Origin: a virus | Length of the DNA: 39,460 nucleotides | Strand: one strand, 5' to 3' | Virus record (IMG/VR): IMGVR_UViG_3300035195_000791 | Coordinates: 1-39,460 of that record | Part shown: positions 4 to 27,483 of the stretch, one piece after another | Layout of the letters: every line of letters begins with the position of its first letter | How positions within the stretch are numbered: position 1 is the stretch's first letter | Position numbers and translations under genes: made by a program | The notes under the pieces: generated by a model | The model's database searches: none | What the model was told of the DNA's origin: nothing | The model's input: the letters and a program-made list of their open reading frames with translations, nothing else

Positions 4-225
4 CTATCTTCTTCTTTTTGTTCTGCAACCTACTTTTTTTCCTCTTCTATATACAGCTTTACGACCTCTTCCACAACTGTTTCTTGCTTCTCTTTTAAGT
101 TCATAAGCTTCTTGTTCACTTCTTCTTGCTGCTTGAGGCCATCCTTTATCTTTTCTTTTTTGAGCTTGCCTTTGTTTTCTTGCTGCTTTTTTTAAAAGCC
201 TACTTCTTTTATCTGTAACTGCCAT
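4..225 (-). CDS. Arg/Lys-rich two-cysteine basic protein (73 aa)
   Basis: This is the last gene of a leftward run of eleven tiny basic genes. About 40 percent of its residues are Lys or Arg, and unlike its neighbours it has more Arg than Lys. It has exactly two cysteines (residues 51 and 67, C-x15-C) inside the most basic segment, and it ends in KRRR. No enzyme motif, signal peptide or membrane segment is visible. The stop codon lies 3 bases from the window edge, so anything further downstream is unseen. The start follows the stop of the upstream gene by a single base. Function is unknown. Binding to DNA or RNA through charge is inferred from composition, and a protamine-like virion role is one possibility. 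Confidence 0.7.
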   Translation of the reverse strand: MAVTDKRSRLLKKAARKQRQAQKRKDKGWPQAARRSEQEAYELKREARNSCGRGRKAVYRRGKKVGCRTKRRR

Positions 226-226
226 T

Positions 227-652
227 TTATTTTTTTTTGTTTAATTTATCTCTATTTTTTTTCATTCTACTTGTAATAAATTTACCTCTTACTTTCATAA
301 CTTTTCTGGTTGTACATTTACCTTTTTTATTACACTTAGACAACGTGTAAGTTCCGTCTTTGTTTTTTTTAATTTGTTTAAAAGTTTCAGTTGATTTTCC
401 TCCTCTTTTTGAGCTATACTTACCTTTTATACGACTTACTGTATTGTCGTCAAGGCTTGTACTATAAATTTTACTTTTAAATTTTTCAGAACTTTTTCCT
501 CTTTTCATTTTCATTTTCAAAGTAGACTTTGAAGTTATCTTCGCTCCAGGAACTTTTACATTGCTTTGACCTTTAGTTACTTTTGCTCCCTTAGCATATA
601 CTACAGTCCCTTTACCTACATAATTTTTTGTTTTTCTTTTTGGATCTGGCAT
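227..652 (-). CDS. Lys-rich MPDP-type two-cysteine basic protein (141 aa)
   Basis: One of the two largest members of the basic cluster. It begins MPDPKRK, a start shared with three other genes in the same run. The C-terminal third holds the only two cysteines in a short CNKKGKC motif flanked by beta-like segments, followed by a Lys-rich tail ending NKKK. The middle is Ser/Lys/Gly-rich low-complexity sequence with no hydrophobic core. Its ATG overlaps the preceding stop by one base (TAATG), a sign of translational coupling. Function is unknown; nucleic-acid binding is inferred only from charge. Confidence 0.72.
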   Translation of the reverse strand: MPDPKRKTKNYVGKGTVVYAKGAKVTKGQSNVKVPGAKITSKSTLKMKMKRGKSSEKFKSKIYSTSLDDNTVSRIKGKYSSKRGGKSTETFKQIKKNKDGTYTLSKCNKKGKCTTRKVMKVRGKFITSRMKKNRDKLNKKK

Positions 653-882
653 TATCTTACTCCTTTTACGTTTTTAACAAATTGTTTTCCTTTTGCTCCT
701 GCTTTCTTTTTCTTTCGAGCTGTAGCAGCAAGCTTTCGCTTAGAGAGGCTTTTAGCTTTAGCCATAGGTAAACAGCGATCAGGGTTTTTCTTGTTCTTAG
801 AAGTTCCACAAGGGCCTTTTATCTTACCGTCTGTACCGATACGAACCCAGTTCTCTTCACGCCATTTTTTTAACTCACCCAT
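652..882 (-). CDS. Two-cysteine basic protein with GPCGTSK/NPDRCLP motif (76 aa)
   Basis: A third of the residues are Lys or Arg. The N-terminal half has a recognisable pattern: a Trp-containing segment (KKWREENWVRIG), then GPCGTSK and NPDRCLP (C-x11-C), then an Ala/Lys-rich helix (AATARKKKKAGAKGK). From memory, this Cys-containing pattern recurs in small proteins of marine viral metagenomes. I could not verify that, and no function is known to me. It is the member of the cluster most likely to return database matches. It is coupled to both neighbours by one-base stop/start overlaps. Confidence 0.78.
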   Translation of the reverse strand: MGELKKWREENWVRIGTDGKIKGPCGTSKNKKNPDRCLPMAKAKSLSKRKLAATARKKKKAGAKGKQFVKNVKGVR

Positions 883-1016
883 TATTTTTTATTTGCTCTT
901 CTTTTATCGTGATTATAACCTCTTTTTTTTAAAGATAAGTGATCAGACATAGTCTTAGCAACTTTTTTAATTCCTGTTTTACTATACATGTTATGTACTT
1001 TAAATTTCTTAGCCAT
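882..1016 (-). CDS. Very small basic protein (44 aa)
   Basis: A 44-residue gene lying exactly between its neighbours. Its ATG overlaps the upstream stop by one base and its TAA overlaps the downstream ATG by one base, which is the main reason to accept such a short frame. The product begins MAKKFKVHNMYSKTG and ends RRANKK. It is strongly basic and, unlike most members of the cluster, has no cysteine. Function is unknown. Confidence 0.62.
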   Translation of the reverse strand: MAKKFKVHNMYSKTGIKKVAKTMSDHLSLKKRGYNHDKRRANKK

Positions 1017-1171
1017 TATTTTTTCTTTTTACCTTTTCCGTAATTAGGATCTTTACAATATTTACTTGCTGCCATGTTTGCGTAAGCAGACGGATACTTG
1101 TCAAAAGTTTTTTTAGCCCACGCTATACCAGCTGGGCAAATTTTATTTCCTTTTTTTGTTCTACCTGCCAT
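1016..1171 (-). CDS. Very small two-cysteine basic protein with KICPAGIAWAK motif (51 aa)
   Basis: A 51-residue gene tiled by one-base TAATG and ATGA-like overlaps with both neighbours. It has two cysteines (residues 12 and 39, C-x26-C), which flank an aromatic/Ala-rich helix-like stretch containing FDKYPSAYAN. The C-terminus is GKGKKKK. Unlike its low-complexity neighbours, the centre looks like a small folded domain, with the two cysteines placed to join its ends. From memory, similar short sequences occur in marine phages; this is unverified. Function is unknown. Confidence 0.68.
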   Translation of the reverse strand: MAGRTKKGNKICPAGIAWAKKTFDKYPSAYANMAASKYCKDPNYGKGKKKK

Positions 1172-1461
1172 TAGTCATACGGATTATAAGATCTTTTACT
1201 CGCCTTCTTTTTTTTCCTTCTTTCGATTCCTCTTTTTATACCTTTTTTTATTCCAGTAACTATTTTTCCTAATTTTTTCTTCTTTTTATTTGGCTTAGGT
1301 GTTTCTTTTTTATTATCACGTGATCTACCAGAAATACTATCAAATTCTCGCTGCAGTTGTTCCTTGTGTTTCTTAAATCTCGCTGCTAACTTAGCACATT
1401 CTTCTTTTGTCTTGCCAGTTTTGCGCTCTCCATTAAAATTGTAATTACATGTCTTTGCCAT
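1171..1461 (-). CDS. Two-cysteine basic protein (96 aa)
   Basis: The N-terminal 35 residues look folded, with two cysteines (C5 and C22, C-x16-C) and a helix-like stretch (EECAKLAARFKKHKEQ). The C-terminal half is a Lys-rich tail with KKKKK and RRKKKK runs, ending RSYNPYD. It sits in frame with the leftward run, 3 bases from the upstream gene and overlapping the next start by one base. A small cysteine-stabilised head plus a basic tail would suit nucleic-acid binding, but this is inference. Confidence 0.7.
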   Translation of the reverse strand: MAKTCNYNFNGERKTGKTKEECAKLAARFKKHKEQLQREFDSISGRSRDNKKETPKPNKKKKKLGKIVTGIKKGIKRGIERRKKKKASKRSYNPYD

Positions 1462-1464
1462 AAT

Positions 1465-1674
1465 TTATTTTTCTATAGGGCCTGGACTTGTAACATCAAG
1501 ATCACTTAGTTTTCCAAAACCTGAGGTGCTTTTCTTTCGGACTTTCATCATTGCGTCATAAGCTTTTAACTGCTTTGGTGTTCTTTTAACCATCTTGTAC
1601 TTACACTTTCTTACTCCTTTTTTGTTTGTTTTACAAACTTGAGTTCTTACTTTTTTTCTTTTTGGATCTGGCAT
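1465..1674 (-). CDS. MPDP-type two-cysteine basic protein (69 aa)
   Basis: It begins MPDPKRKK, so it belongs to the MPDP group. The two cysteines lie in CKTNKKGVRKC (C-x9-C), very like CNKKGKC of the gene at 227-652: a Lys/Gly turn between two cysteines. The C-terminal 20 residues are not basic (they include LSDLDVTSPGP), which is unusual in this cluster and could be an interaction tail. The ATG is preceded by an A-rich leader with no Shine-Dalgarno sequence. Function is unknown. Confidence 0.7.
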   Translation of the reverse strand: MPDPKRKKVRTQVCKTNKKGVRKCKYKMVKRTPKQLKAYDAMMKVRKKSTSGFGKLSDLDVTSPGPIEK

Positions 1675-1690
1675 AATTTTTATTTTAAAT

Positions 1691-2119
1691 TTATTTTTTC
1701 TTTTTTAATATTTTTCTATAATTAATAACTGTAGGAGCTTTCTTAACGTCCTTAGCTGTTTTGGTAATTGTATTAACAGCTCCTTTAGCATCAAGGTTTT
1801 TTATGTTTTTTGCAAGTTTAATAGCTCCTTGTACTACTTTACCAGTTTTAGAATTAGCTACTTTTTTACCTACCTCTACACCTTTGTCAACACCTCTTCT
1901 TACTTTAGTCTTTCCTGTAGAATTTAAACCTGCTATGTTTTTTTTAAGTCTTGACATTTTTTTAAGACTACATTTTTTACCTGAGCTTTTTGCAGCAGCA
2001 GCACATTTAGCTAATTTCTTTTTTTGAATAGCTAAAGATTTTTTAGCCAACATAGTCATTTTTGGCTTTGATGTTTTTGAACTTATTGTTTTTTTGCCAC
2101 CTGGGCCTGATGCTGCCAT
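1691..2119 (-). CDS. Ala/Lys-rich two-cysteine basic protein (142 aa)
   Basis: The longest member of the cluster. It has a Lys/Ala/Ser-rich N-terminus, two cysteines (C39 and C50, in KCAAAAKSSGKKC), then a histone-H1-like low-complexity region rich in Lys, Ala, Val and Gly with predicted helical stretches, ending ILKKKK. It resembles bacterial Lys/Ala-rich nucleoid proteins only in composition. It lies 2 bases from the upstream gene and 16 bases from the downstream one. Function is unknown; DNA compaction is a composition-based guess. Confidence 0.7.
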   Translation of the reverse strand: MAASGPGGKKTISSKTSKPKMTMLAKKSLAIQKKKLAKCAAAAKSSGKKCSLKKMSRLKKNIAGLNSTGKTKVRRGVDKGVEVGKKVANSKTGKVVQGAIKLAKNIKNLDAKGAVNTITKTAKDVKKAPTVINYRKILKKKK

Positions 2120-2121
2120 AG

Positions 2122-2337
2122 TTATTTCTTTTTTTGATTTTTTAGAGACTCTTTTAGTGAATTTCTTTTTTTTATAATTTTTTCATATCGAAAACCCTTA
2201 AGTGAATCTAATTTCCTTAGCTTAACAGAATCTTTTTTCCGTTTCATTTTGTAAGCGGAAGTCTTTCTTTTAGCAGCTATCTTAGCTTTACACTTTTTTA
2301 ATTTTTCTCCTTTTAATCCTTTACAATAAAGTCCCAT
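2122..2337 (-). CDS. Two-cysteine basic protein (71 aa)
   Basis: It begins MGLYCKGLKGEKLKKCKAK, with two cysteines at residues 5 and 16 (C-x10-C) again bracketing a Lys/Gly turn. The rest is an amphipathic Lys-rich helix-like sequence ending KNQKKK. The start overlaps the stop of the upstream gene by one base (TAATG). No known family is recognised. Confidence 0.7.
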   Translation of the reverse strand: MGLYCKGLKGEKLKKCKAKIAAKRKTSAYKMKRKKDSVKLRKLDSLKGFRYEKIIKKRNSLKESLKNQKKK

Positions 2338-2609
2338 TATCTTTTTCTTGGATTATCGTTAATTTTTCTTCGGTTCTTTTGTTCTTTTTTAGCTAACCGA
2401 TTAATTCTACTAATATATTTCTTTTGCTTTAAAGTTAGCTTAACATCTTTAACCTTATTAGTTCTAATCTTATTATAGTTTTCTTTGCCTAATTCTTTTT
2501 TCAAGACATTAACCATCTCCATTCTACTTGTAGAATCTCTAACGATTTTTTTTCTAACTTTAACTCTCTTTAAAGAGTCCCTAACTTTTTTAGTAATTGG
2601 ATCTGGCAT
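2337..2609 (-). CDS. MPDP-type basic protein without cysteine (90 aa)
   Basis: It begins MPDPITKK. It is mostly charged helix, about 40 percent Lys or Arg, without cysteine or hydrophobic segments. A central stretch (MVNVLKKELGKENYNKIR) looks like an ordinary amphipathic helix rather than pure low complexity, so a small helical fold is possible. It lies 3 bases from the upstream gene and is coupled to the downstream gene. Function is unknown. Confidence 0.68.
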   Translation of the reverse strand: MPDPITKKVRDSLKRVKVRKKIVRDSTSRMEMVNVLKKELGKENYNKIRTNKVKDVKLTLKQKKYISRINRLAKKEQKNRRKINDNPRKR

Positions 2610-2612
2610 ATC

Positions 2613-2915
2613 TTAATATCTAAGTGATTTTCTTTTAGTACTACTTGAACCTCTTTTCGCTTTTACTACTGGCTTCATTGGTTTTTTTATACCTTTTTTC
2701 TTAGCTTTTAGTAATGCAGCTTTTCTTAATGCAGCGACACTCTTTGCAGATCCACTTCTTACAATTTTTCCTACGCCTTTAAGTTTTGGGCCTTTTTTCT
2801 TAACTTTTTTCTTTTTAGCAAAAGTGCCTGGTCTATTTTGTGGGCCATAGCCTGTTTGACCTGCTTTCTTTTTTGCTGGTGTACCTTTTGTTTGTTTCTT
2901 TTTTGGATCTGGCAT
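2613..2915 (-). CDS. MPDP-type Lys-rich basic protein without cysteine (100 aa)
   Basis: The first of the eleven basic genes, directly downstream of the amidase (17-base gap). It begins MPDPKKKQTKG. By hand count it has 30 Lys and 6 Arg in 100 residues. Short Gly/Pro-rich segments separate Lys runs, and the C-terminus is SSTKRKSLRY. It probably lacks a stable fold by itself. Its leader (A-rich, ending AAATT before ATG) matches those of the other MPDP genes, suggesting gene duplication. Function is unknown. Confidence 0.7.
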   Translation of the reverse strand: MPDPKKKQTKGTPAKKKAGQTGYGPQNRPGTFAKKKKVKKKGPKLKGVGKIVRSGSAKSVAALRKAALLKAKKKGIKKPMKPVVKAKRGSSSTKRKSLRY

Positions 2916-2932
2916 AATTTTTATTTTTATAG

Positions 2933-3367
2933 TTATATATTACAATACTCTGTTGTTGCATCAAAACTTGGACATGCCTTAGCAGCAAAGTCTCGATGGG
3001 AATGAATTTTTGCTTCTGGATACATTTTACGTAATACACGCAATAATTCTAACATAGTTGCTATTTGTTCTGGAGTTCTTGTATCTTTTGCAGGATACTT
3101 TCCTTTTGAATCTCTTTCAGATTCTACTCCTCCCACATAACAAATCGAGATAGAGCTGCAATTCAAACCTTTCGTATGCGCTCCACATTTATCTACCATA
3201 CGTCCAGTTTCAATAGTACCATCTATTAAAACTAAAAAATGATATCCTATTCCTTTCCATCCTCTTTTTTTATGCCACCGATCTATAACCTCAGCATTGA
3301 TAGAATTATCTCCTTCTCTTGTTGCGGAACAATGAATAATGATTTTACTTACGTTCTCTTTCCTCAT
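2933..3367 (-). CDS. N-acetylmuramoyl-L-alanine amidase, T7-lysozyme type (endolysin)
   Basis: A 144-residue single-domain Amidase_2 protein, about the size of T7 lysozyme (gp3.5). It should cut the bond between N-acetylmuramic acid and L-alanine in peptidoglycan at lysis. The zinc ligands are visible: H12 in IIIHCSAT, H124 in SHRDF and C132 in ACPSF. K130, two residues before the ligand Cys, matches the catalytic Lys of T7 lysozyme, and Y42 of GIGYHF matches the conserved Tyr. There is no signal peptide, so a holin or other release route would be needed. It is the first gene of the leftward unit that continues into the basic-protein array. In T7 this protein also inhibits the phage RNA polymerase; nothing here shows that. 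Confidence 0.93.
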   Translation of the reverse strand: MRKENVSKIIIHCSATREGDNSINAEVIDRWHKKRGWKGIGYHFLVLIDGTIETGRMVDKCGAHTKGLNCSSISICYVGGVESERDSKGKYPAKDTRTPEQIATMLELLRVLRKMYPEAKIHSHRDFAAKACPSFDATTEYCNI

Positions 3368-3417: not shown

Positions 3418-3873
3418 ATGAGCGTCTCAGTTCGCAATACTTCACGTAAACAACCTACGCATGATTATCTTAAATACTGGCGTGTAATTAAATACTGGGC
3501 AAAAAGAAAATATAATATTAGTACAGCAGATTTAGAAATGATGTTGTTTCTGTACAGTGAACACCTGTTTAATAAAACAAAATTTGAAGAATACCAACAA
3601 CTAATGAGTTGGAATAAAAATAAATTTTACACTTTAATCAAAGAAGGTTGGATACATCAATGGCGTAAGAAGAAAGGTAAAGAAGTTGCTATGTATGAAT
3701 TAACTTATAAAGCAAAACGTTTAGTAAATAACGTATATGGAAAATTAAATGGTGAAGAGTTTCCAGAAAACTACGTAAACAATCCTGTTTTCAAACACGA
3801 TGTTAGGTTTAGAGATAAAGTTTTTAGACAGTATATGCTAAAAATAAATAAAGAAATAAGAGAAAATAATTAA
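3418..3873 (+). CDS. Winged-helix (MarR-like) DNA-binding protein, putative
   Basis: A 151-residue protein whose residues 30-115 read like a MarR-type winged helix: a helix (STADLEMMLFLYSEHLF), a short helix-turn-helix region (SWNKNKFYTLIKEGWI), then a basic wing (RKKKGKEVAMYELT) followed by a long helix. It is the only rightward gene in the first 7 kb and is read divergently from the amidase, next to a perfect inverted repeat. A role as a regulator of the amidase/basic-protein unit is therefore plausible. Its last bases overlap the convergent groES by 4 bases. The family assignment is by pattern only. Confidence 0.6.
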   Translation: MSVSVRNTSRKQPTHDYLKYWRVIKYWAKRKYNISTADLEMMLFLYSEHLFNKTKFEEYQQLMSWNKNKFYTLIKEGWIHQWRKKKGKEVAMYELTYKAKRLVNNVYGKLNGEEFPENYVNNPVFKHDVRFRDKVFRQYMLKINKEIRENN

Positions 3874-4127
3874 ATAACTACAACTACGTCTCTTTCACTA
3901 ATAACAGTATAAAGCTTATCATCGATTAACATTGAGTGTCCTGCAGCTTTATCATAGTATATATTATCATTTTCTTTAATAGTGTCTACTAAAGTACCTG
4001 GTTTAACTACATTAGCTTTTTGATATCTCATAGCAGATACATCTTCAGATGATAATAATATACCTGATTCTGTTTTAACCTCTTCTTCTGTTTTTGTAAT
4101 TACAATGTATTTACCTATTGGTTGCAT
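3870..4127 (-). CDS. groES: GroES-type co-chaperonin (Cpn10)
   Basis: An 85-residue co-chaperonin, slightly shorter than the usual 95-100. It begins with the family-typical MQPIGKYIVI. The mobile-loop region around residues 14-28 contains SGILL, equivalent to the Ile-Val-Leu contact of GroES that docks on GroEL. The C-terminal half has GHSMLIDDKLYTVISERDVVVVI, matching the Cpn10 end (Y-x-hydrophobic-x-E-x-D-hydrophobic). It should cap the chaperonin encoded two genes upstream. The gene order (groEL first, groES last) is the reverse of the usual bacterial operon. It ends against the convergent winged-helix gene. Confidence 0.85.
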   Translation of the reverse strand: MQPIGKYIVITKTEEEVKTESGILLSSEDVSAMRYQKANVVKPGTLVDTIKENDNIYYDKAAGHSMLIDDKLYTVISERDVVVVI

Positions 4128-4323: not shown

Positions 4324-5937
4324 TTAAATTTGATTTATTCTTTTGTGAGTTACAATAGCATTAGTTGAAAGTATAGTGGTAGCAACACTACTTGCATTTA
4401 ATAATGCATTCTTTGTAACCTTGAGTGGGTCAATAACCCCCATAGTTAGCATGTTACCAAACTTTTCGTTCTTAGCATCAAAACCATAGTTCTTAGTATT
4501 CTTGTCGTTTATCTTCTCTATGATGTCGTTCGGATCAATTCCTGCGTTGTTTAGGATTTGAATTAAAGGTTGACAAAGAGCATTCTTAACTATTTTAAGT
4601 GCAACTTCATAGTCTGCATCTCCCTTCCAGGTTTTTATTGTAGGCATATTTGTACTGGCATTGTATAATGCTATACCTCCACCAGCTACAATCCCTTCTT
4701 CTAAAGCCGATCGAACAGCACACACCGAGTCATCGACTCGGTCAAATTTTTCTTTCTGCTCCACGTCTGAGTTACCGCCCACGTAAATACAGCCTATAGC
4801 TCCAGCTAAGCTTGCTATACGCTCGTCAATAAATTTTCGAGACACTGGGTCTGTAGTATTATCTTGCTGCACTCTAAGCTCGCTTATGCGGTTTTTAAGT
4901 TCTTTAGTCGGTTCTGCATTTTTAATTAATACGGAAGTTGTCTTGCCAATAATGATTTTATCAGCAAAACCTAAATCCTCAGCTCTTAATAGGCTAAGGT
5001 CATCTCCCGTTTGCTCTGAAAAGTATTTAGCTCCAACAGTTGCTGCTATATCTTGCATCAGTTCGTTCTTCTTGTAACCGAACGAAGGCGGTGCAATATT
5101 ACATAGCTTCAAATTGTTTCTAACTACGTTGGCTGCAAAAGTGTTTATCACGTTTTGACCGCAGTCTGCTATTATTAATAACTTATCATTGTTTTTTATT
5201 ATCGTTTTTAGTACCGATTCGATTTGTAAAATATTACTTATCTCTTGATCACATACTAAAATCTTCACATCTTCTAATACGCACTCGTCTTTCTTTTGAT
5301 TATTTATAAATAGATTGGAAGTATAACCTCTATCTACTTTGATACCATTGGTAACCTCTGCGTAAGTCTTATGGTTTTGTGATTTCTCTACAGTCACTAT
5401 TCCATCACGACCAACTTTGTTGTAGGCTTCCGAAATTAATTCCCCTATTATCGAATCATTGTTAGCAGATATCTTAGCTACATCTAACAAACTATTGTCT
5501 GTAATCTTTTTTGAATTCTTCTCCAAAATATTTACAACTTGTTCTACCAAAGCATTAGTGTGTCTAACTACCATTGATGTGTTATGACTATCGTCAATGT
5601 ACTCATTACCTGCTTTTACAAAAGCTTCTGCCAAAACAATAGCTGTAGTTGTTCCATCACCAGCTGAATTAGCTGTACGCTCGGCCGCATCTTTCATTAT
5701 CTGAATCGCAAGATTCTCTACTGGATCATCTAAGAAGATTGATGCTGCTACTGTTACACCGTCTTTAGTCACTGTCATCCCTCTCATATGCTCAGGAGAC
5801 TCTACAACAACTGTCTTTCCCCTTGGGCCTAATGTACTCTTTACTGCTTTTGAAATTTGAGAGATTCCGCTTATTAATTTATCTCTACCAGATTTATCGA
5901 AATGTAAATCTTTTGGAATGTAGCCCTGTTTTGACAT
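4324..5937 (-). CDS. groEL: GroEL-type chaperonin (Hsp60/Cpn60)
   Basis: A full-length 537-residue group I chaperonin (bacterial GroEL is about 545). The nucleotide-binding motifs are intact: LGPRGKTVVV near residue 36, GDGTTTA at 93-99 with the catalytic Asp of the family, and RVDDSVCAVRSALEEG then IVAGGG towards the C-terminus, which keeps the second ATPase Asp. The apical domain is divergent. The C-terminus ends HKRINQI and lacks the Gly-Gly-Met repeat tail that lines the bacterial GroEL chamber. With the linked groES it could assemble a phage chaperonin able to fold large virion proteins; T4 replaces GroES alone, whereas this phage supplies both. It has its own promoter and is the first gene of a three-gene leftward operon. 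Confidence 0.95.
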   Translation of the reverse strand: MSKQGYIPKDLHFDKSGRDKLISGISQISKAVKSTLGPRGKTVVVESPEHMRGMTVTKDGVTVAASIFLDDPVENLAIQIMKDAAERTANSAGDGTTTAIVLAEAFVKAGNEYIDDSHNTSMVVRHTNALVEQVVNILEKNSKKITDNSLLDVAKISANNDSIIGELISEAYNKVGRDGIVTVEKSQNHKTYAEVTNGIKVDRGYTSNLFINNQKKDECVLEDVKILVCDQEISNILQIESVLKTIIKNNDKLLIIADCGQNVINTFAANVVRNNLKLCNIAPPSFGYKKNELMQDIAATVGAKYFSEQTGDDLSLLRAEDLGFADKIIIGKTTSVLIKNAEPTKELKNRISELRVQQDNTTDPVSRKFIDERIASLAGAIGCIYVGGNSDVEQKEKFDRVDDSVCAVRSALEEGIVAGGGIALYNASTNMPTIKTWKGDADYEVALKIVKNALCQPLIQILNNAGIDPNDIIEKINDKNTKNYGFDAKNEKFGNMLTMGVIDPLKVTKNALLNASSVATTILSTNAIVTHKRINQI

Positions 5938-20829: not shown

Positions 20830-23800
20830 TTAATTTAATCCTTTAGACAAAGGTTTAGATAACCTTCTTCTTTTTTGTTTATTACTTGAATTTTTTTGTA
20901 TAGGTTTTGGTCTTTGTAAAACTTTTCTTTTTCCTCCACTTGTTTTATCTCCTCCGATAACTTTACGACTATCCATATAATCATCATAAGCATCTTGTTG
21001 TTTTTTTGTTAAGGGACGTTTACCAAACATATCTTTAAGAATAATTCTTCTTATATCCTTATAAAAAGGTAGTAAACCTAAATTACCTAACGCTTCAACA
21101 GCTAATCTTTCTTCTAATTCTTTCTCGTATTTAGCTATCGTTTCTGGCTTAGCAGTATCACTATTTAATCTCGTTAGCACTGTACCTGTTCTGATTAATG
21201 TTTTTAAAAGAGGCCCGTAAGGCCCAGCTAATACTTTTGATCCTACCTTTAAAAGATCACCGCTTGCTAAATCATCTTGATTTATTTGACTAAATACCAT
21301 ACTATGTACAAACGGATCGTATTCACCCTTTCTAAAGTCTTTCATAAGAGGCTCGTTTATACCATACTCAAGCATAAAGTTTATAGGTATTTTAGCAAAG
21401 TTTCCAAGTGTACCTCCTGTCATAAGACCAAGAGATGATCCTACAAGTTGTCTTACCATCATATCTTCAAGGTCATCGTCTTCTCTTTTATCATCTTTTA
21501 CATCAAACAATTCATCATCCATTAGACTTGTAAGCATTGAATACATAACCATATAAGAAGACATTCTAAATGTAACTCCTGCTAATAAACCTAAAGCTTC
21601 AGCTTTGCTTAAATCTCCTTTTTTATGTAAAGCATGGATTGCATGTCTTGCAGTACCAAATTCAAATAAAGTAAATCTTTGCATATAAGAATTAGACAGT
21701 TTATATAATTGCATTAAGCCTGAGTCACTTACTTTTGGAGTGTTTTTGAGGATACCATCAAAAGGATTAGAAGAAGTAGCCATAACTACAACACTACCAT
21801 CTGCCTTTTGTGTTGCTTCTTGTCTTGCTTCTTTAAAATCTACACCTAAATATTTTGATGTTCCATCAGCAATCTTTTTAAAATCTTCAGATGTTAATTT
21901 AATACCTGTAGTTTCAGCAAAAGAATCTGCAAAAGCTCCAAACCACATAGGTCTCGAAAGAACTTGATCTGGATATGACAAAACTTTATTACCCACTTCA
22001 TTTACTGCAGCGTAAGTTTGTTTAATACCACTAAATCTCATAATAGCACCCATAACATTCGACATTTGACTAACTGCTTGTCCAGAAGATCTGCTTGGCT
22101 GTACAAAATCTGACATATCAGAGTACTTAGAAGTTAAAGCATCAGAATCTACTAACTTACTTGTAACACCTGATTGTAAATTTGTTAAAGCATCAAACAT
22201 TATTTCGGTATTGTAAGGATTTGATGTAAAAGTTCCAAAAGATTTCATAGCTCTTGTAGCTTTAGCTGGGTTGGACAACATCATTCCAAAGTTACCTATT
22301 AATTCAGCAGCAGCTCTTGGAAGTGAAGCCAATGCTGACTGATAACCTATTCTTTTTACTTCTTGCATCACTTTATCTGAAAGGGTTGCATCTGAATAAG
22401 ATTGCATAAACACGTTTTCAACTACTTCATTTATAGATCGTGTCAAAGCATTAGCAGCCATAATGGAAGATCGAGATGCATTAGGATTGTTTTCTAACTC
22501 ACTCTTTATTGTATTTACTAAACCACCTACTTGCTGTAAGTCTTGTGTCATATAGTAATCCATATTAATTTGTTGAACACCACGAATAGCCGAATACGAA
22601 GGATCAAAACTTATAGCTTTTGCTCCATCTGTTCTTTCAATTATAGTTTTAGACTTTGTAGTACTATCAACTGTGTTAACATATTCCTTTGCCCTCTTAG
22701 CTACTTCTGTTTTAGCATCTCCGTCAGTATTTATAACAGAGTGATGATTGTAGTTATTAAGTAAATCAACTTGATTACCATGCATTGTTGAAACAAACAC
22801 AGCTTTTTGGGCTAATCCATTATTAACTTCATCATATAAAGCTAAAGCTTTCTTTTCTGCTGGAGTTAAAGATTTTTCTAACTTCTCTAAACTTAATTGA
22901 TCTCCATCTAAAAATTGTTCTTTTAATTCTGTAAGTAATTTTCCATCTTTTTCTGAAAGTATACCTACGTTTTTTATTGCTTGCAACGTAGCATCTACAA
23001 ACTCTAAAGCAGAAGGAGTTTTTTTATTTGGTTTATCATTCTTAAAGTTAGATAAAAACTCTCTTTGTAACTGTAACATTCTAATTTTATACTTAGATTT
23101 TACAATTGCATTTTGAGATCTACCCATACGAGTTTTCTTTCTCACTTGATTTACTCCATCAAACTCTAATATTTTATCTGCAGCTTCTACTTTAGCTACT
23201 TCTTTTTTAGTTTCAGACTTGTAAGTTTCAAAAGCTTTACCAAGTCTACCAAATGTATTGTTGTAAATAGTTTTACTATTAAAGTTTCCAAAAATGTCAT
23301 CAACATTAAATAAAGGGCCAGACCTTACTCTTTCTAATACAAAAGATTTGTCAGTTTTCATTGACTTAATTTTTTGATAAGCACTCTTAACGTTACGATA
23401 TATGCTTTCTTTCTTAACTTTTGCAATTACTGGCTCTACTTTAATCTTTCTGTTATTAATATCTACTTTGTTAACCAGCTTCATAGCTGCTGCAGGAACA
23501 TAACCGTTTTGAATATTTTGTTTTACTTTTTTCAAAGTTTCGATAGCAGAATAATCCATAGTGCCATCTTTCTTTTCTCTTCCTAAAGACCTAATTTCTT
23601 TTTCATTAAGTTCAGAAAGAATCCTTGCTATTTCTCTTGCTCTTGGATCGCTTATTTTTGAAAGTTCTTTTTTAGATATTTTCACTGCTTTTACACCAGC
23701 TACTCCCTCTTCAACATTATAGTCATCTGGAGTTGGTTTTTGATCAACAGATAAATTTTCATCTACATTAACCTCAGCCTCCACAGCATTTATGATATCT

Positions 23801-26800
23801 AAGGCTTGTTGCATTGTCGTAGACTTTTCTTTTAAATCTAAAACTGCTTTACTTGATCCAAACTCTTCCATTAATTGAAGATAAGAATCCAGTTTTGCAT
23901 CTGGGATTATTGATGGATTAAAACCAAGTACTTGGTTTAAAGCTACTTTTAAATCATTTGAAACAGGCCCTATCTTACTTTTAATATTTTCCTTAGCCTT
24001 AGTTTTTAATTTTTTAGCTCTTGTAATTTTAGCTGTAAAGTCAGCGTCAGTCATGACTTTATCTACAAAAGCTAAATAACTATCTACTGATTCTTTAACA
24101 AAAGGTTTTACAGCTGCTAATCTATCTGTCAATACAGTAGTTTGCATAGAAGAAACTTTACCACCCTTTCTCAATGATTTTATTTCAGCAGTAATATTTT
24201 TTAAAAAACTCTGATAAGACTTTACTGCTTTCTTTGCAGCTTTTGCTTGCATTATAATTTGATCTTTAAGTGCAGTCCTTTCATTTACAACTACTCTTTT
24301 TTGAGGTACAGTTTTATTTTTACCTTCGTTTATAGTCCCTAACATTCTATTGTTCTGCTCAGCAAGCTTAAAACCTTTATTTATTGACGCTCTTGATGGT
24401 GCTTGAATACCAAGGTCTTCACTTACTTCACGAACTAAAGCATCATATTCCACTTGATTTAGTTGCTCGGCTAATTTAGTTCCACGTAAATACTCAGTCA
24501 CTTGCTTAACTATAAAAGCAGGGTTTATAGATTTAGGTCTACGTCCAAGAATTTTTTTCTTTATATCTTGAGCTATATTTTTAACACGCTGAGGGTCAGC
24601 TGTTACTCGTTGTTCAGCTTGTAAGAACTCGTCAACTGAAACATTTTCTTCAGCTGCAACTTCTTTAATAGTATTCATTACATTATTAAATGATTCACTA
24701 CCTTCTTGTTTTTCTTCTATTAATTTAGATCTAACATCTTTTAGTTTCCCAGGATCTCTTGAATCAATTGCATCATTTACTTCCGTTTCGGTCTGCGCCT
24801 TTGTTGTGGTGCTGCTTTCGACTTCAGTCGATTCGGTAGAGACGTTGGCAGTGGGGTCTCCTTCTCCCACCGTTTTGCTATCTTGGGTAGATTCTTGTGC
24901 ATCCACCTCCGTTGTGCTTGGCTTTTGAATGGCATCTGGTTTCGTATTTAATTCATTAGTTACGTTTGTTGTTTTTTCTAAAACAGGCAACGCTACGTCT
25001 ATAGTGTAACTTTTTTTACCTTTTTTAGTTCCTTTTCTTTTTATTTTTACCTCAATTCCTGGATAAGCTTTTTTAATTTTTTCAACTTCAGCTTCAGCTT
25101 TAGCTTTGTCATCGGTTTGAAAAGCCTTAAATGCATCTGTACCACCTTTATCTTTTACCGATTCTTGTGTTGCATCACTATATGCGGTTGTTTGCGTAAC
25201 CACATTTCCGTCAGCATCTACTTTCTCTGTTAAATTTTTTGATTTATAATAAACATTTAAACCACCTTCAGATATTGTTGTGGTTTCAACAACTTCAGAA
25301 CCAGGAGGTAAAGAAGCTTCTGCCATAGTAATCATATTCTTAAACTCATTCCCAGTAGATTCCATTTTTGCTGTAAACTGATTCGTTGGGTTTCCGTTTG
25401 AATCATAAATTCTTGTAAAGCCAACAAAATTTTTAGAATCTCCACTGCTACTTATAACCACATCTAACTCTCCAGTTTTAGGATTGTTGTATGTAGCTGT
25501 TTGCACACCTTTTTCGTCTGGATTTGTAATACCACTCAACACAGCTTTTCCATAAGGAAGTTTTTTATCTGAATGAGTTTTACCAAATACATCTGGTGCT
25601 GAATCTAATCGAGCTTGTTCAAATAATTCTTTTTGTTTAGCTTCTATTTGTTCTACAGAAGCATCAGTAACACCTTCGTTTTCTAAAGCTTCAATCGCAC
25701 TATCTTTGGTGATAGAAATATTTAGATTTGTTGTATTCCCTTTTGTATCAGAAACTTTAACAGATTGAGCCATTACACCCTCATATTTATCTAAAATTTT
25801 ATTTATCTGAATATCTATATCTGCTTTTCTTTTTTTATTTACTTTTAATGTAGGGTCTTGCATATTTGCAGACTCTTGTTCTAAAGCAATTAATTTAGCT
25901 CGATCTTCACCTTGTATGTAATCAGGAATATCTAAATCAAATTGTGCAGCTTGTTTTCTTAATGTAATTTTATTAGAAAGTTCTGGGTCATTTTTAATGT
26001 CAAACTGAGCAGTTCTAATTTCTTCATCAGTCATCGTGTCAACCATAGCTTCTACGTCAGCTTTAGTTGTAGGTGTAACATCTCCACCCTTGCTTATAGT
26101 TCCATACTTTGCTGGTTTAAATACATTTCGAGCAACATCTGTAAGGGAAGTTCCTGTCACAGCTTGAGGTACACTTAATACAGAACTTGCTTGTCCTGTT
26201 ATACCTTCAAAACCTATTTCAGCCACATCAAATTCTTGACCTCCTGTTCCACGATTAACAAAATCTAAATTAGTAGCTGCTCTTGCAGCGGTTTCTCCAG
26301 CTGACCCACCTAAAGCTTCTATACCAGCAGCTTTTAAACCTGCTCTTGTTGCCATTTTTTTAGACACTTGTTTTCCTGCTGCTTTTGCTGTTTTAACTGC
26401 TGATCCACCTAATTTACCTGCAACTCCACGTGTTAAGCCATCAATTGTTCCAATCACTAAACCTCTTGCTGCAGATTTATTTCTTATACCTTGAAGTGCT
26501 TCAGGGTCTTCTAACACTGCTCGTATGCCATCATCGTTAAACTCTAATCCCTTTTTCTCAACAGCTTCTTTTAAAAACTCTGTAAATGATAAACCTGTTT
26601 CAAGTGCAGCTCCTGCTCCCATCAATGACCCTGTTATAGCTCCACCTGCACCTGTAATAGCCGCTAAAGGCCCTCCAATAGCTCCTGCAGCTGCACCTAC
26701 ACCTCCACCTACTACTGCTCCAGCACCTGCTCCTGCAGCCACTGTGGGGTTTACCATTGAGGCAATAGATGAAATTAAAAGTTGGTTTACTACAGAAGGA

Positions 26801-27483
26801 TTAAATGCTACACCTTTAACAAAACCAAGTATACCACCACCACTTTCTTCATAAATTTTATTGAAGCTACGCATTTCATCAGACATACCAATGTTATCCA
26901 TTTCTTCAACAACCCTCATGTATTCTGTTAAATCTTCTTCTGAAATAGATGCGCCACGAGCATATAAGTTTAGAGCATCGTCTAAGGTTGCACCTTGACC
27001 CACCCCTTGTGAGGCAGCTCTCCACATATCTCCAAAGAAATCTGTTACAGTGTTTTTACCCACCATTTCTTCAAGCCAAGTATTCTTTTCCCCTACTTGA
27101 GTATTACCTCCGTAACGAGTTCCTACAGGGTCTTGAGGTATAAAAACACTTTCTTCTGTTAAATTTTGTACGTTAAGTCCGTCACTTAATGAACCTGCCA
27201 ACGGAGAAGATAATCCCGATGAAGATTGATCCTCTGGAATTGTTTGATCTTGCATAGTCGTATCCAATCCCATATCTTGGGTAGGAGAAACTTGCGGAGA
27301 ATCTTTTTTTTTTAATGGCTCAATATATTGATTAAACTGTTCTTCGTCTTCAAATGTTCCAGGCTTAAACAAATCAAATAATTCATCAGTCCCATCTTCT
27401 TCAATAAAAGTTTTAAATTCTTCTATATCCACGAATGTCCCATCGGGCATTAATCCAAATAATTCTTGTAATAATTCCTCCAT
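20830..27483 (-). CDS. Giant virion protein (2217 aa), likely DNA-ejection/internal virion protein
   Basis: The largest gene. The first 60 residues have two related acidic units (PDGTFVDIEEFKTFIEE and PGTFEDEEQFNQYIEPL). At about 235-310 is a long Gly/Ala-rich hydrophobic stretch able to enter membranes. Around 860-905 lies a Ser/Thr/Glu linker. The middle is Lys-rich helical and coiled coil. Two hydrophobic segments occur near 1970 and 2020 (LLAGVTFRMSSYMVMYSML; SSLGLMTGGTLGNF), and the tail is basic. Such size, hydrophobic patches and position after two smaller putative core proteins fit a T7 gp16-like or polyvalent ejection protein. I see no lytic transglycosylase or RNA-polymerase motif, so enzymatic cargo is unproven. 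Confidence 0.78.
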   Translation of the reverse strand: MEELLQELFGLMPDGTFVDIEEFKTFIEEDGTDELFDLFKPGTFEDEEQFNQYIEPLKKKDSPQVSPTQDMGLDTTMQDQTIPEDQSSSGLSSPLAGSLSDGLNVQNLTEESVFIPQDPVGTRYGGNTQVGEKNTWLEEMVGKNTVTDFFGDMWRAASQGVGQGATLDDALNLYARGASISEEDLTEYMRVVEEMDNIGMSDEMRSFNKIYEESGGGILGFVKGVAFNPSVVNQLLISSIASMVNPTVAAGAGAGAVVGGGVGAAAGAIGGPLAAITGAGGAITGSLMGAGAALETGLSFTEFLKEAVEKKGLEFNDDGIRAVLEDPEALQGIRNKSAARGLVIGTIDGLTRGVAGKLGGSAVKTAKAAGKQVSKKMATRAGLKAAGIEALGGSAGETAARAATNLDFVNRGTGGQEFDVAEIGFEGITGQASSVLSVPQAVTGTSLTDVARNVFKPAKYGTISKGGDVTPTTKADVEAMVDTMTDEEIRTAQFDIKNDPELSNKITLRKQAAQFDLDIPDYIQGEDRAKLIALEQESANMQDPTLKVNKKRKADIDIQINKILDKYEGVMAQSVKVSDTKGNTTNLNISITKDSAIEALENEGVTDASVEQIEAKQKELFEQARLDSAPDVFGKTHSDKKLPYGKAVLSGITNPDEKGVQTATYNNPKTGELDVVISSSGDSKNFVGFTRIYDSNGNPTNQFTAKMESTGNEFKNMITMAEASLPPGSEVVETTTISEGGLNVYYKSKNLTEKVDADGNVVTQTTAYSDATQESVKDKGGTDAFKAFQTDDKAKAEAEVEKIKKAYPGIEVKIKRKGTKKGKKSYTIDVALPVLEKTTNVTNELNTKPDAIQKPSTTEVDAQESTQDSKTVGEGDPTANVSTESTEVESSTTTKAQTETEVNDAIDSRDPGKLKDVRSKLIEEKQEGSESFNNVMNTIKEVAAEENVSVDEFLQAEQRVTADPQRVKNIAQDIKKKILGRRPKSINPAFIVKQVTEYLRGTKLAEQLNQVEYDALVREVSEDLGIQAPSRASINKGFKLAEQNNRMLGTINEGKNKTVPQKRVVVNERTALKDQIIMQAKAAKKAVKSYQSFLKNITAEIKSLRKGGKVSSMQTTVLTDRLAAVKPFVKESVDSYLAFVDKVMTDADFTAKITRAKKLKTKAKENIKSKIGPVSNDLKVALNQVLGFNPSIIPDAKLDSYLQLMEEFGSSKAVLDLKEKSTTMQQALDIINAVEAEVNVDENLSVDQKPTPDDYNVEEGVAGVKAVKISKKELSKISDPRAREIARILSELNEKEIRSLGREKKDGTMDYSAIETLKKVKQNIQNGYVPAAAMKLVNKVDINNRKIKVEPVIAKVKKESIYRNVKSAYQKIKSMKTDKSFVLERVRSGPLFNVDDIFGNFNSKTIYNNTFGRLGKAFETYKSETKKEVAKVEAADKILEFDGVNQVRKKTRMGRSQNAIVKSKYKIRMLQLQREFLSNFKNDKPNKKTPSALEFVDATLQAIKNVGILSEKDGKLLTELKEQFLDGDQLSLEKLEKSLTPAEKKALALYDEVNNGLAQKAVFVSTMHGNQVDLLNNYNHHSVINTDGDAKTEVAKRAKEYVNTVDSTTKSKTIIERTDGAKAISFDPSYSAIRGVQQINMDYYMTQDLQQVGGLVNTIKSELENNPNASRSSIMAANALTRSINEVVENVFMQSYSDATLSDKVMQEVKRIGYQSALASLPRAAAELIGNFGMMLSNPAKATRAMKSFGTFTSNPYNTEIMFDALTNLQSGVTSKLVDSDALTSKYSDMSDFVQPSRSSGQAVSQMSNVMGAIMRFSGIKQTYAAVNEVGNKVLSYPDQVLSRPMWFGAFADSFAETTGIKLTSEDFKKIADGTSKYLGVDFKEARQEATQKADGSVVVMATSSNPFDGILKNTPKVSDSGLMQLYKLSNSYMQRFTLFEFGTARHAIHALHKKGDLSKAEALGLLAGVTFRMSSYMVMYSMLTSLMDDELFDVKDDKREDDDLEDMMVRQLVGSSLGLMTGGTLGNFAKIPINFMLEYGINEPLMKDFRKGEYDPFVHSMVFSQINQDDLASGDLLKVGSKVLAGPYGPLLKTLIRTGTVLTRLNSDTAKPETIAKYEKELEERLAVEALGNLGLLPFYKDIRRIILKDMFGKRPLTKKQQDAYDDYMDSRKVIGGDKTSGGKRKVLQRPKPIQKNSSNKQKRRRLSKPLSKGLN

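Follow-up and report, generated by a model that had tools for sequence, protein, structure and literature searches.

A cluster of small basic genes at a contig end

We analysed the whole of virus record IMGVR_UViG_3300035195_000791 from IMG/VR (39,460 bases, called the window below) and describe here an array of eleven tiny genes at positions 4-2915, all on the minus strand. The open reading frames (ORFs), numbered o1 to o11 by position, encode 44-142 amino acids (aa) and abut with 1-base overlaps or gaps of at most 16 bases, exactly as the initial annotation had laid them out. That annotation put lysine plus arginine (Lys+Arg) at about a third or more in the genes it counted; the range over the eleven is 27-41%, and net charge runs from +12 to +39 per protein, for a sum of +269. 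Exactly two cysteines (Cys) occur in eight of the eleven proteins, at the spacings first noted (x15, x5, x11, x26, x16, x9, x10 and x10), all of which proved correct. Cys frequency is 1.7% in the array and 0.9% in the remaining window, and placing the 16 Cys at random by length yields eight or more such proteins with P = 2e-4. The contig breaks off 3 bases past the o1 stop, inside the late operon, and the stretch that would link one end of the window to the other is missing, so eleven is a minimum.

ORFs of at least 40 aa cover 99% of the coding strand over positions 1-2920, as against a mean of 5% and a maximum of 25% in 300 dinucleotide shuffles, and BLAST homologues were found for ten of the eleven (o1-o8, o10 and o11). 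Ratios of nonsynonymous to synonymous substitution (dN/dS, by the Nei-Gojobori method) come to about 0.00-0.09 in o3, o4 and o5 (some zero values stem from saturated synonymous sites), 0.11-0.30 for o10 (most pairs no higher than about 0.15) and 0.3-0.7 for o1, o2, o6, o7, o8 and o11; the best-conserved genes of the array are thus under strong purifying selection. A-rich noise that stays open by chance, the reading that the initial annotation had named as its own undoing, might draw on the T-rich plus strand and on the low complexity of the Lys-rich tails, but the shuffles, the homologues in many loci and the dN/dS values far below 1 of o3, o4, o5 and o10 rule it out for no fewer than ten of these ORFs and leave it virtually no credence for the array.

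The first gene, o1 (4-225), encodes 73 aa (Lys+Arg 40%, Cys 51 and 67) and has homologues with both Cys in the related viral loci L084 and L092. It is followed by o2 (227-652; 141 aa), with Cys 107 and 113 in a CNKKGKC turn; homologues in L086 and L087 retain the pair at x5, or x4 in a second copy. The small o3 (652-882; 76 aa, Cys 25 and 37) has a dN/dS of 0.03 against its L089 relative, and o4 (882-1016; 44 aa) lacks Cys; of its homologues, found in 8 loci, the one in L027 has gained a Cys pair. Next come o5 (1016-1171; 51 aa, Cys 12 and 39) and o6 (1171-1461; 96 aa, Cys 5 and 22), whose pair is present in all 5 distinct members of its family. Homologues of o7 (1465-1674; 69 aa, Cys 14 and 24) retain the pair at x9 in 8 loci, and that of o8 (1691-2119; 142 aa, Cys 39 and 50) is retained in the L084 homologue and missing from the L092 relative. 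For o9 (2122-2337; 71 aa, Cys 5 and 16) BLAST gave no whole-length match, its relatives being found through a short N-terminal Cys motif (CKGLKG...KKC) that recurs with x10 in L035, L084 and L086. The last two proteins lack Cys: o10 (2337-2609; 90 aa) has homologues of 82-90% identity in 5 loci, and o11 (2613-2915; 100 aa) has weak ones in L084 and L092.

Four of these proteins (o2, o7, o10 and o11) begin with MPDP. The first 16 bases of o2, o7 and o11 are identical (ATGCCAGATCCAAAAA, encoding MPDPK; minus strand, 652-637, 1674-1659 and 2915-2900), the o10 start (2609-2598, minus strand) encodes MPDPI, and MPDP-type starts are also seen in homologues. This common start could be a signal for translation, a leader that is processed, or a joint at which recombination shuffles the modules.

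Paired cysteines and shared modules

Every listed BLAST homologue of o1, o2, o3, o5, o6 and o7 retains both Cys. Both are present in 153 of 153 aligned o3 relatives (nine members, exceptions to the pairing, have three Cys) and in 89 of 89 aligned members of DUF6321, a family found in related arrays; the o5 family keeps the pair in 150 of 155 members (97%) and has lost it jointly in 3, and these three relatives have Tyr aligned at each site. In the four-Cys family F5 the patterns are CCCC (46), ..CC (12) and CC.. (2), with no broken pair; the twelve ..CC sequences are interrelated, so they represent few events and not twelve. Even Cys numbers outnumber odd ones by 11 to 3 among the basic families, at least one of the odd ones appearing spurious, as opposed to 12 even and 31 odd among other small families (Fisher P 0.001).

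We take the keeping, loss and gain of Cys in pairs as a sign that each module is selected to contain a disulphide, and the conserved pairs, judged by their conservation and joint loss, would be able to form one. AlphaFold models o5 as a helical hairpin with the Cys at its open ends, and puts those of o3 where strands end. The initial annotation had left the choice between a disulphide and a metal site; selection on the pairs is borne out, and the metal site is not favoured, as two Cys without a conserved His offer too few ligands in one chain. It had also drawn an analogy with Cys-crosslinked protamines. Here the selected pairs stand, but Cys that are lost together, once in favour of a Tyr-Tyr alignment, suggest pairs internal to small folded modules and not crosslinks between chains.

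Profile matches link o3 to phrog_23735 (E 1.3e-27) and o5 to phrog_27331 (E 1.5e-22), both annotated as being of unknown function, and their arrangement recalls DUF5872 (PF19197), which consists of an o5-like module (profile positions 1-39) followed by an o3-like module (about 51-115). When the o5-like protein of L244 and the o3-like protein of L250 are joined in tandem, they match DUF5872 end to end (E 3e-15, 57.2 bits), and a Cys-less o5 relative alone scores 41.7 bits. The window copies are separate genes and fall short of the curated cut-off of 27.5 bits (o3 15.3 bits, o5 no match), so that o3 and o5, corresponding to the C-terminal and N-terminal halves of DUF5872, are best described as its relatives and not as members. 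None of the eleven window proteins matches DUF6321 (PF19846), and NCBIfam gave no credible match. The claim that no such phage system had been described is partly wrong: relatives are catalogued (DUF5872, DUF6321, phrog_23735 and phrog_27331), all with unknown function, and for DUF5872, DUF6321, DUF5754 and DUF5945 our literature searches found only papers that give them in gene lists.

A fold search with the o5 model led to cyanophage proteins; one of these, 517 aa long and labelled "virion protein" in phage S-SCSM1, is a fusion of such modules. Sequence and fold searches of PDB with o3 and o5 returned nothing usable. The S-SCSM1 protein (SSCSM1_29, QFG06285.1) contains an o3-like module (E 5e-9), an o5-like WPSAYASG module, a DUF6321 module (E 2e-27) and CWDGYEKKGMKTMFGKRYPNC, which has the same x19 spacing as a 36-aa free protein of L085 (the CWxGY...NCV module). 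These are the four modules of Syn9 gp114, which has exactly eight Cys (spacings x11, x22, x19 and x29), and S-SCSM1_29 carries further Cys-rich segments as well. Both proteins come from T4-like cyanophages, are encoded in the structural region near terminase and resemble the array in having basic o3-like and o5-like modules, each with its own Cys pair. They differ in being one long chain where the window has separate genes, and in their hosts; S-SCSM1_29, unlike the window, mixes the modules with other Cys-rich and non-basic segments, and o1, o2, o4 and o6-o11 mostly have no recognised counterpart in the fused proteins. Free genes closer to the window arrangement are found in Pelagibacter phage HTVC106P, where gp25, gp26 and gp30 belong to the o3, o5 and F5 families, keep their Cys pairs and lie in a run of small basic genes; its host is alphaproteobacterial, its endolysin is of the M15 type and not an amidase, and it has fewer members. 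Two chimeras (L058:7184-7429 and L080:5400-5627) join the N-terminal half of F5 to a DUF6321-like C-terminal half (RKKSYCAR...RAWNC), which suggests module swapping. The array as a whole is a shuffled set of modules.

Relatives of o5 and o3 number in the hundreds among marine viruses: viral contigs hold at least 587 relatives of o5 and at least 596 of the o3 type, and DUF6321-type modules occur in more than 440 cyanophage records. Among the fetched loci that hold both genes, o5 lies directly upstream of o3 in 141 of 210 and within 1 kb in 66 more. The array is not unique to its source phage, and several of its members have relatives across unrelated ocean phages. Only 13 o3 relatives turned up among 84,980 prokaryote genomes, every one in contigs of metagenome-assembled genomes, so we regard the genes as viral and reject a host origin.

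A proposed role in the virion

We put at about even the chances that the array encodes proteins which travel in the virion with the packaged genome, bind nucleic acid and are stapled by disulphides (this and our other likelihoods are judgements, not calculations). Very small, strongly basic, independently folding modules would be produced late, most of them stapled by a single intramolecular disulphide; they would enter the virion, bind the packaged DNA (or another nucleic acid) and go into the host along with it, and the disulphide would close when the particle has left the reducing cytoplasm and reopen after entry. We infer the virion localisation in the source phage, the nucleic-acid binding and the redox step. 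Nucleic-acid binding, which the charge suggests, is the part we consider most likely; presence in the virion seems probable on homology; and whether binding the packaged genome is the main role we consider evenly balanced.

A virion role, proposed from the start by analogy with viral core peptides, is favoured by gene position and, by homology, by the occurrence of such modules fused together in a cyanophage protein whose annotation reads "virion protein". Several phage lineages have a portal gene (phrog_6547 or phrog_1216), then o5-o3, then scaffold- or GroES-like and capsid-side genes, and in other lineages o5 sits between scaffold and major head protein. The S-SCSM1 virion proteome, as measured by mass spectrometry, comprises 45 phage proteins (PMC9602691), and the GenBank record tags 48 genes as "virion protein", S-SCSM1_29 among them. 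This tag covers the three proteins that the paper treats as non-structural and omits several predicted structural genes, and so appears to mark detection and not homology. The small virion-tagged S-SCSM1 proteins 93 and 97 and SSCSM1_92 have no Cys and match no array family. In phage S-CREM2 the array families were not found in the roughly 85% of the genome that was fetched, which makes it uninformative as a proteome test.

Several points weigh against this reading. The probable detection of ORF29 is taken from the record's tag, and the S-SCSM1 authors caution that some detected proteins are possible carry-over (PMC9602691). The DUF6321 protein of phage S-SZBM1 is absent from its 30 detected virion proteins, a weak negative because trypsin-based methods are poor for peptides rich in Lys and Arg. 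The window array adjoins an amidase gene, in the window's relatives the array surrounds it, and o5-o3 follows an M15 endolysin in pelagiphage types. The window o5 matches the fused proteins weakly (z 1.9-2.5; the Cys-less variant does so clearly, z 5.6-7.4), a third Cys, in an extension, is present in 64 of 155 o5-family members, and the o5 and o3 models are of modest confidence (predicted local distance difference test, pLDDT, 68-71). Finally, a paper on the packing of chlorovirus DNA sees little contribution from basic proteins in phages (PMC3281028), which makes the packaged-genome reading surprising. The same paper describes virus-coded basic virion proteins, A278L and A282L of PBCV-1, that are found with the packaged DNA; PBCV-1 is a eukaryotic giant virus in which large kinases carry the basic adaptor domain, and neither the PBCV-specific basic adaptor domain nor the 2-cysteine adaptor domain had a Pfam match in the window ORFs or scanned relatives.

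Of the other readings, the one with most in its favour, though still unlikely, is that the proteins are virion-carried or early effectors acting on host nucleic acid, ribosomes or transcription and not on packaged DNA. Small basic folds could bind RNA or DNA, and fast turnover with shuffling among close relatives recalls accessory effectors; yet few small genes are as well conserved as o3 and o5, which belong to head or late modules, and the operon runs in the late direction. We give rather less weight to cationic lysis-phase peptides, released with the endolysin and disrupting the outer membrane in the manner of disruptins, which are small cationic phage peptides that replace spanins and are encoded near the endolysin. 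The amidase beside the array, the M15 endolysin or holin beside many pelagiphage-type loci and the charge of the peptides fit this idea, but in other lineages these genes are flanked by portal and capsid genes and no lysis gene is present, and the fused version carries a virion-protein annotation. To our knowledge disruptins are single genes without Cys pairs or arrays, nor are we aware of any phage that makes a dozen lysis peptides separately. Less likely again are head assembly or capsid-lining factors that use positive charge to bind the inner shell or scaffold and have no DNA role: the location between portal, scaffold and major head protein is compatible with them, whereas Lys+Arg of a third or more along the whole chain suggests a nucleic-acid ligand.

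In ocean phages the o5 and o3 families rank with the commoner small genes that lack an explanation. Protein-assisted genome packing is thought unimportant in tailed phages and is otherwise known from eukaryotic viruses; were virion DNA binding to hold, packaging of protein with the genome would be more frequent in tailed phages than is assumed, and a toolkit for it would be common to ocean phages and algal giant viruses. DUF5872 (PF19197) is annotated also in the algal giant virus CpV-BQ1 (PMC12085832). We are doubtful of the broadest form of the idea, in which many abundant marine tailed phages package redox-locked, protamine-like small basic proteins with their DNA and the modules are common to algal giant viruses. 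With the fused proteins of cyanophages and with pelagiphages in culture, virion DNA binding can be put to the test at once.

Source phage and adjoining genes

The structural proteins of the window have matches to a crAss muzzle domain and to PHROGs derived from podoviruses of Cellulophaga and Flavobacterium; the source is a tailed podovirus, a distant relative of Cellulophaga phi19:3 and the Flavobacterium elemo phages, with the array in its late gene set. In the stretch of Cellulophaga phi19:3 that was fetched, small basic ORFs of the array kind were not found, a nucleotide search of phage records gave no match and Rfam gave none either. Two syntenic contigs, G001 (56,414 bases) and G002 (56,070 bases), have the order groEL, groES, basic genes, amidase and further basic genes. 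At their other end are the genes that lie upstream of the window's 38452-39420 gene, among them two large ORFs (607-621 and 811 aa) that, by analogy with the annotated relative ctfjg026, would occupy the terminase and portal places.

Directly upstream of the array and in the same operon lies the N-acetylmuramoyl-L-alanine amidase (endolysin) gene (2933-3367, minus strand; PF01510, E 3e-14). A related amidase is present in 17 viral loci, the closer of which carry a like array whose members are shuffled, lost or replaced. Farther on, also on the minus strand, are a GroES-like co-chaperonin gene (3870-4127), called by resemblance and position and not by domain search, and groEL (4324-5937; phrog_5725, E 2e-127), both of them conserved neighbours. 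In 42 related loci GroEL is followed by an 85-aa protein similar to the GroES-like one, and 41 loci of another lineage likewise have a GroES-like gene after o5-o3. A rightward gene of 151 aa (3418-3873), located between groES and the amidase gene, has relatives in 43 loci, mostly in the same opposite orientation; its counterpart in ctfjg026 is annotated as a repressor. The same ctfjg026 locus has a 107-aa Arg/Val/Cys-rich ORF (L106:851-1174) with 8 Cys, which is of low complexity and possibly spurious. The structural operon of the window closes with a gene for a 2217-aa protein (20830-27483), which reaches about 2970 aa in G001 and G002.

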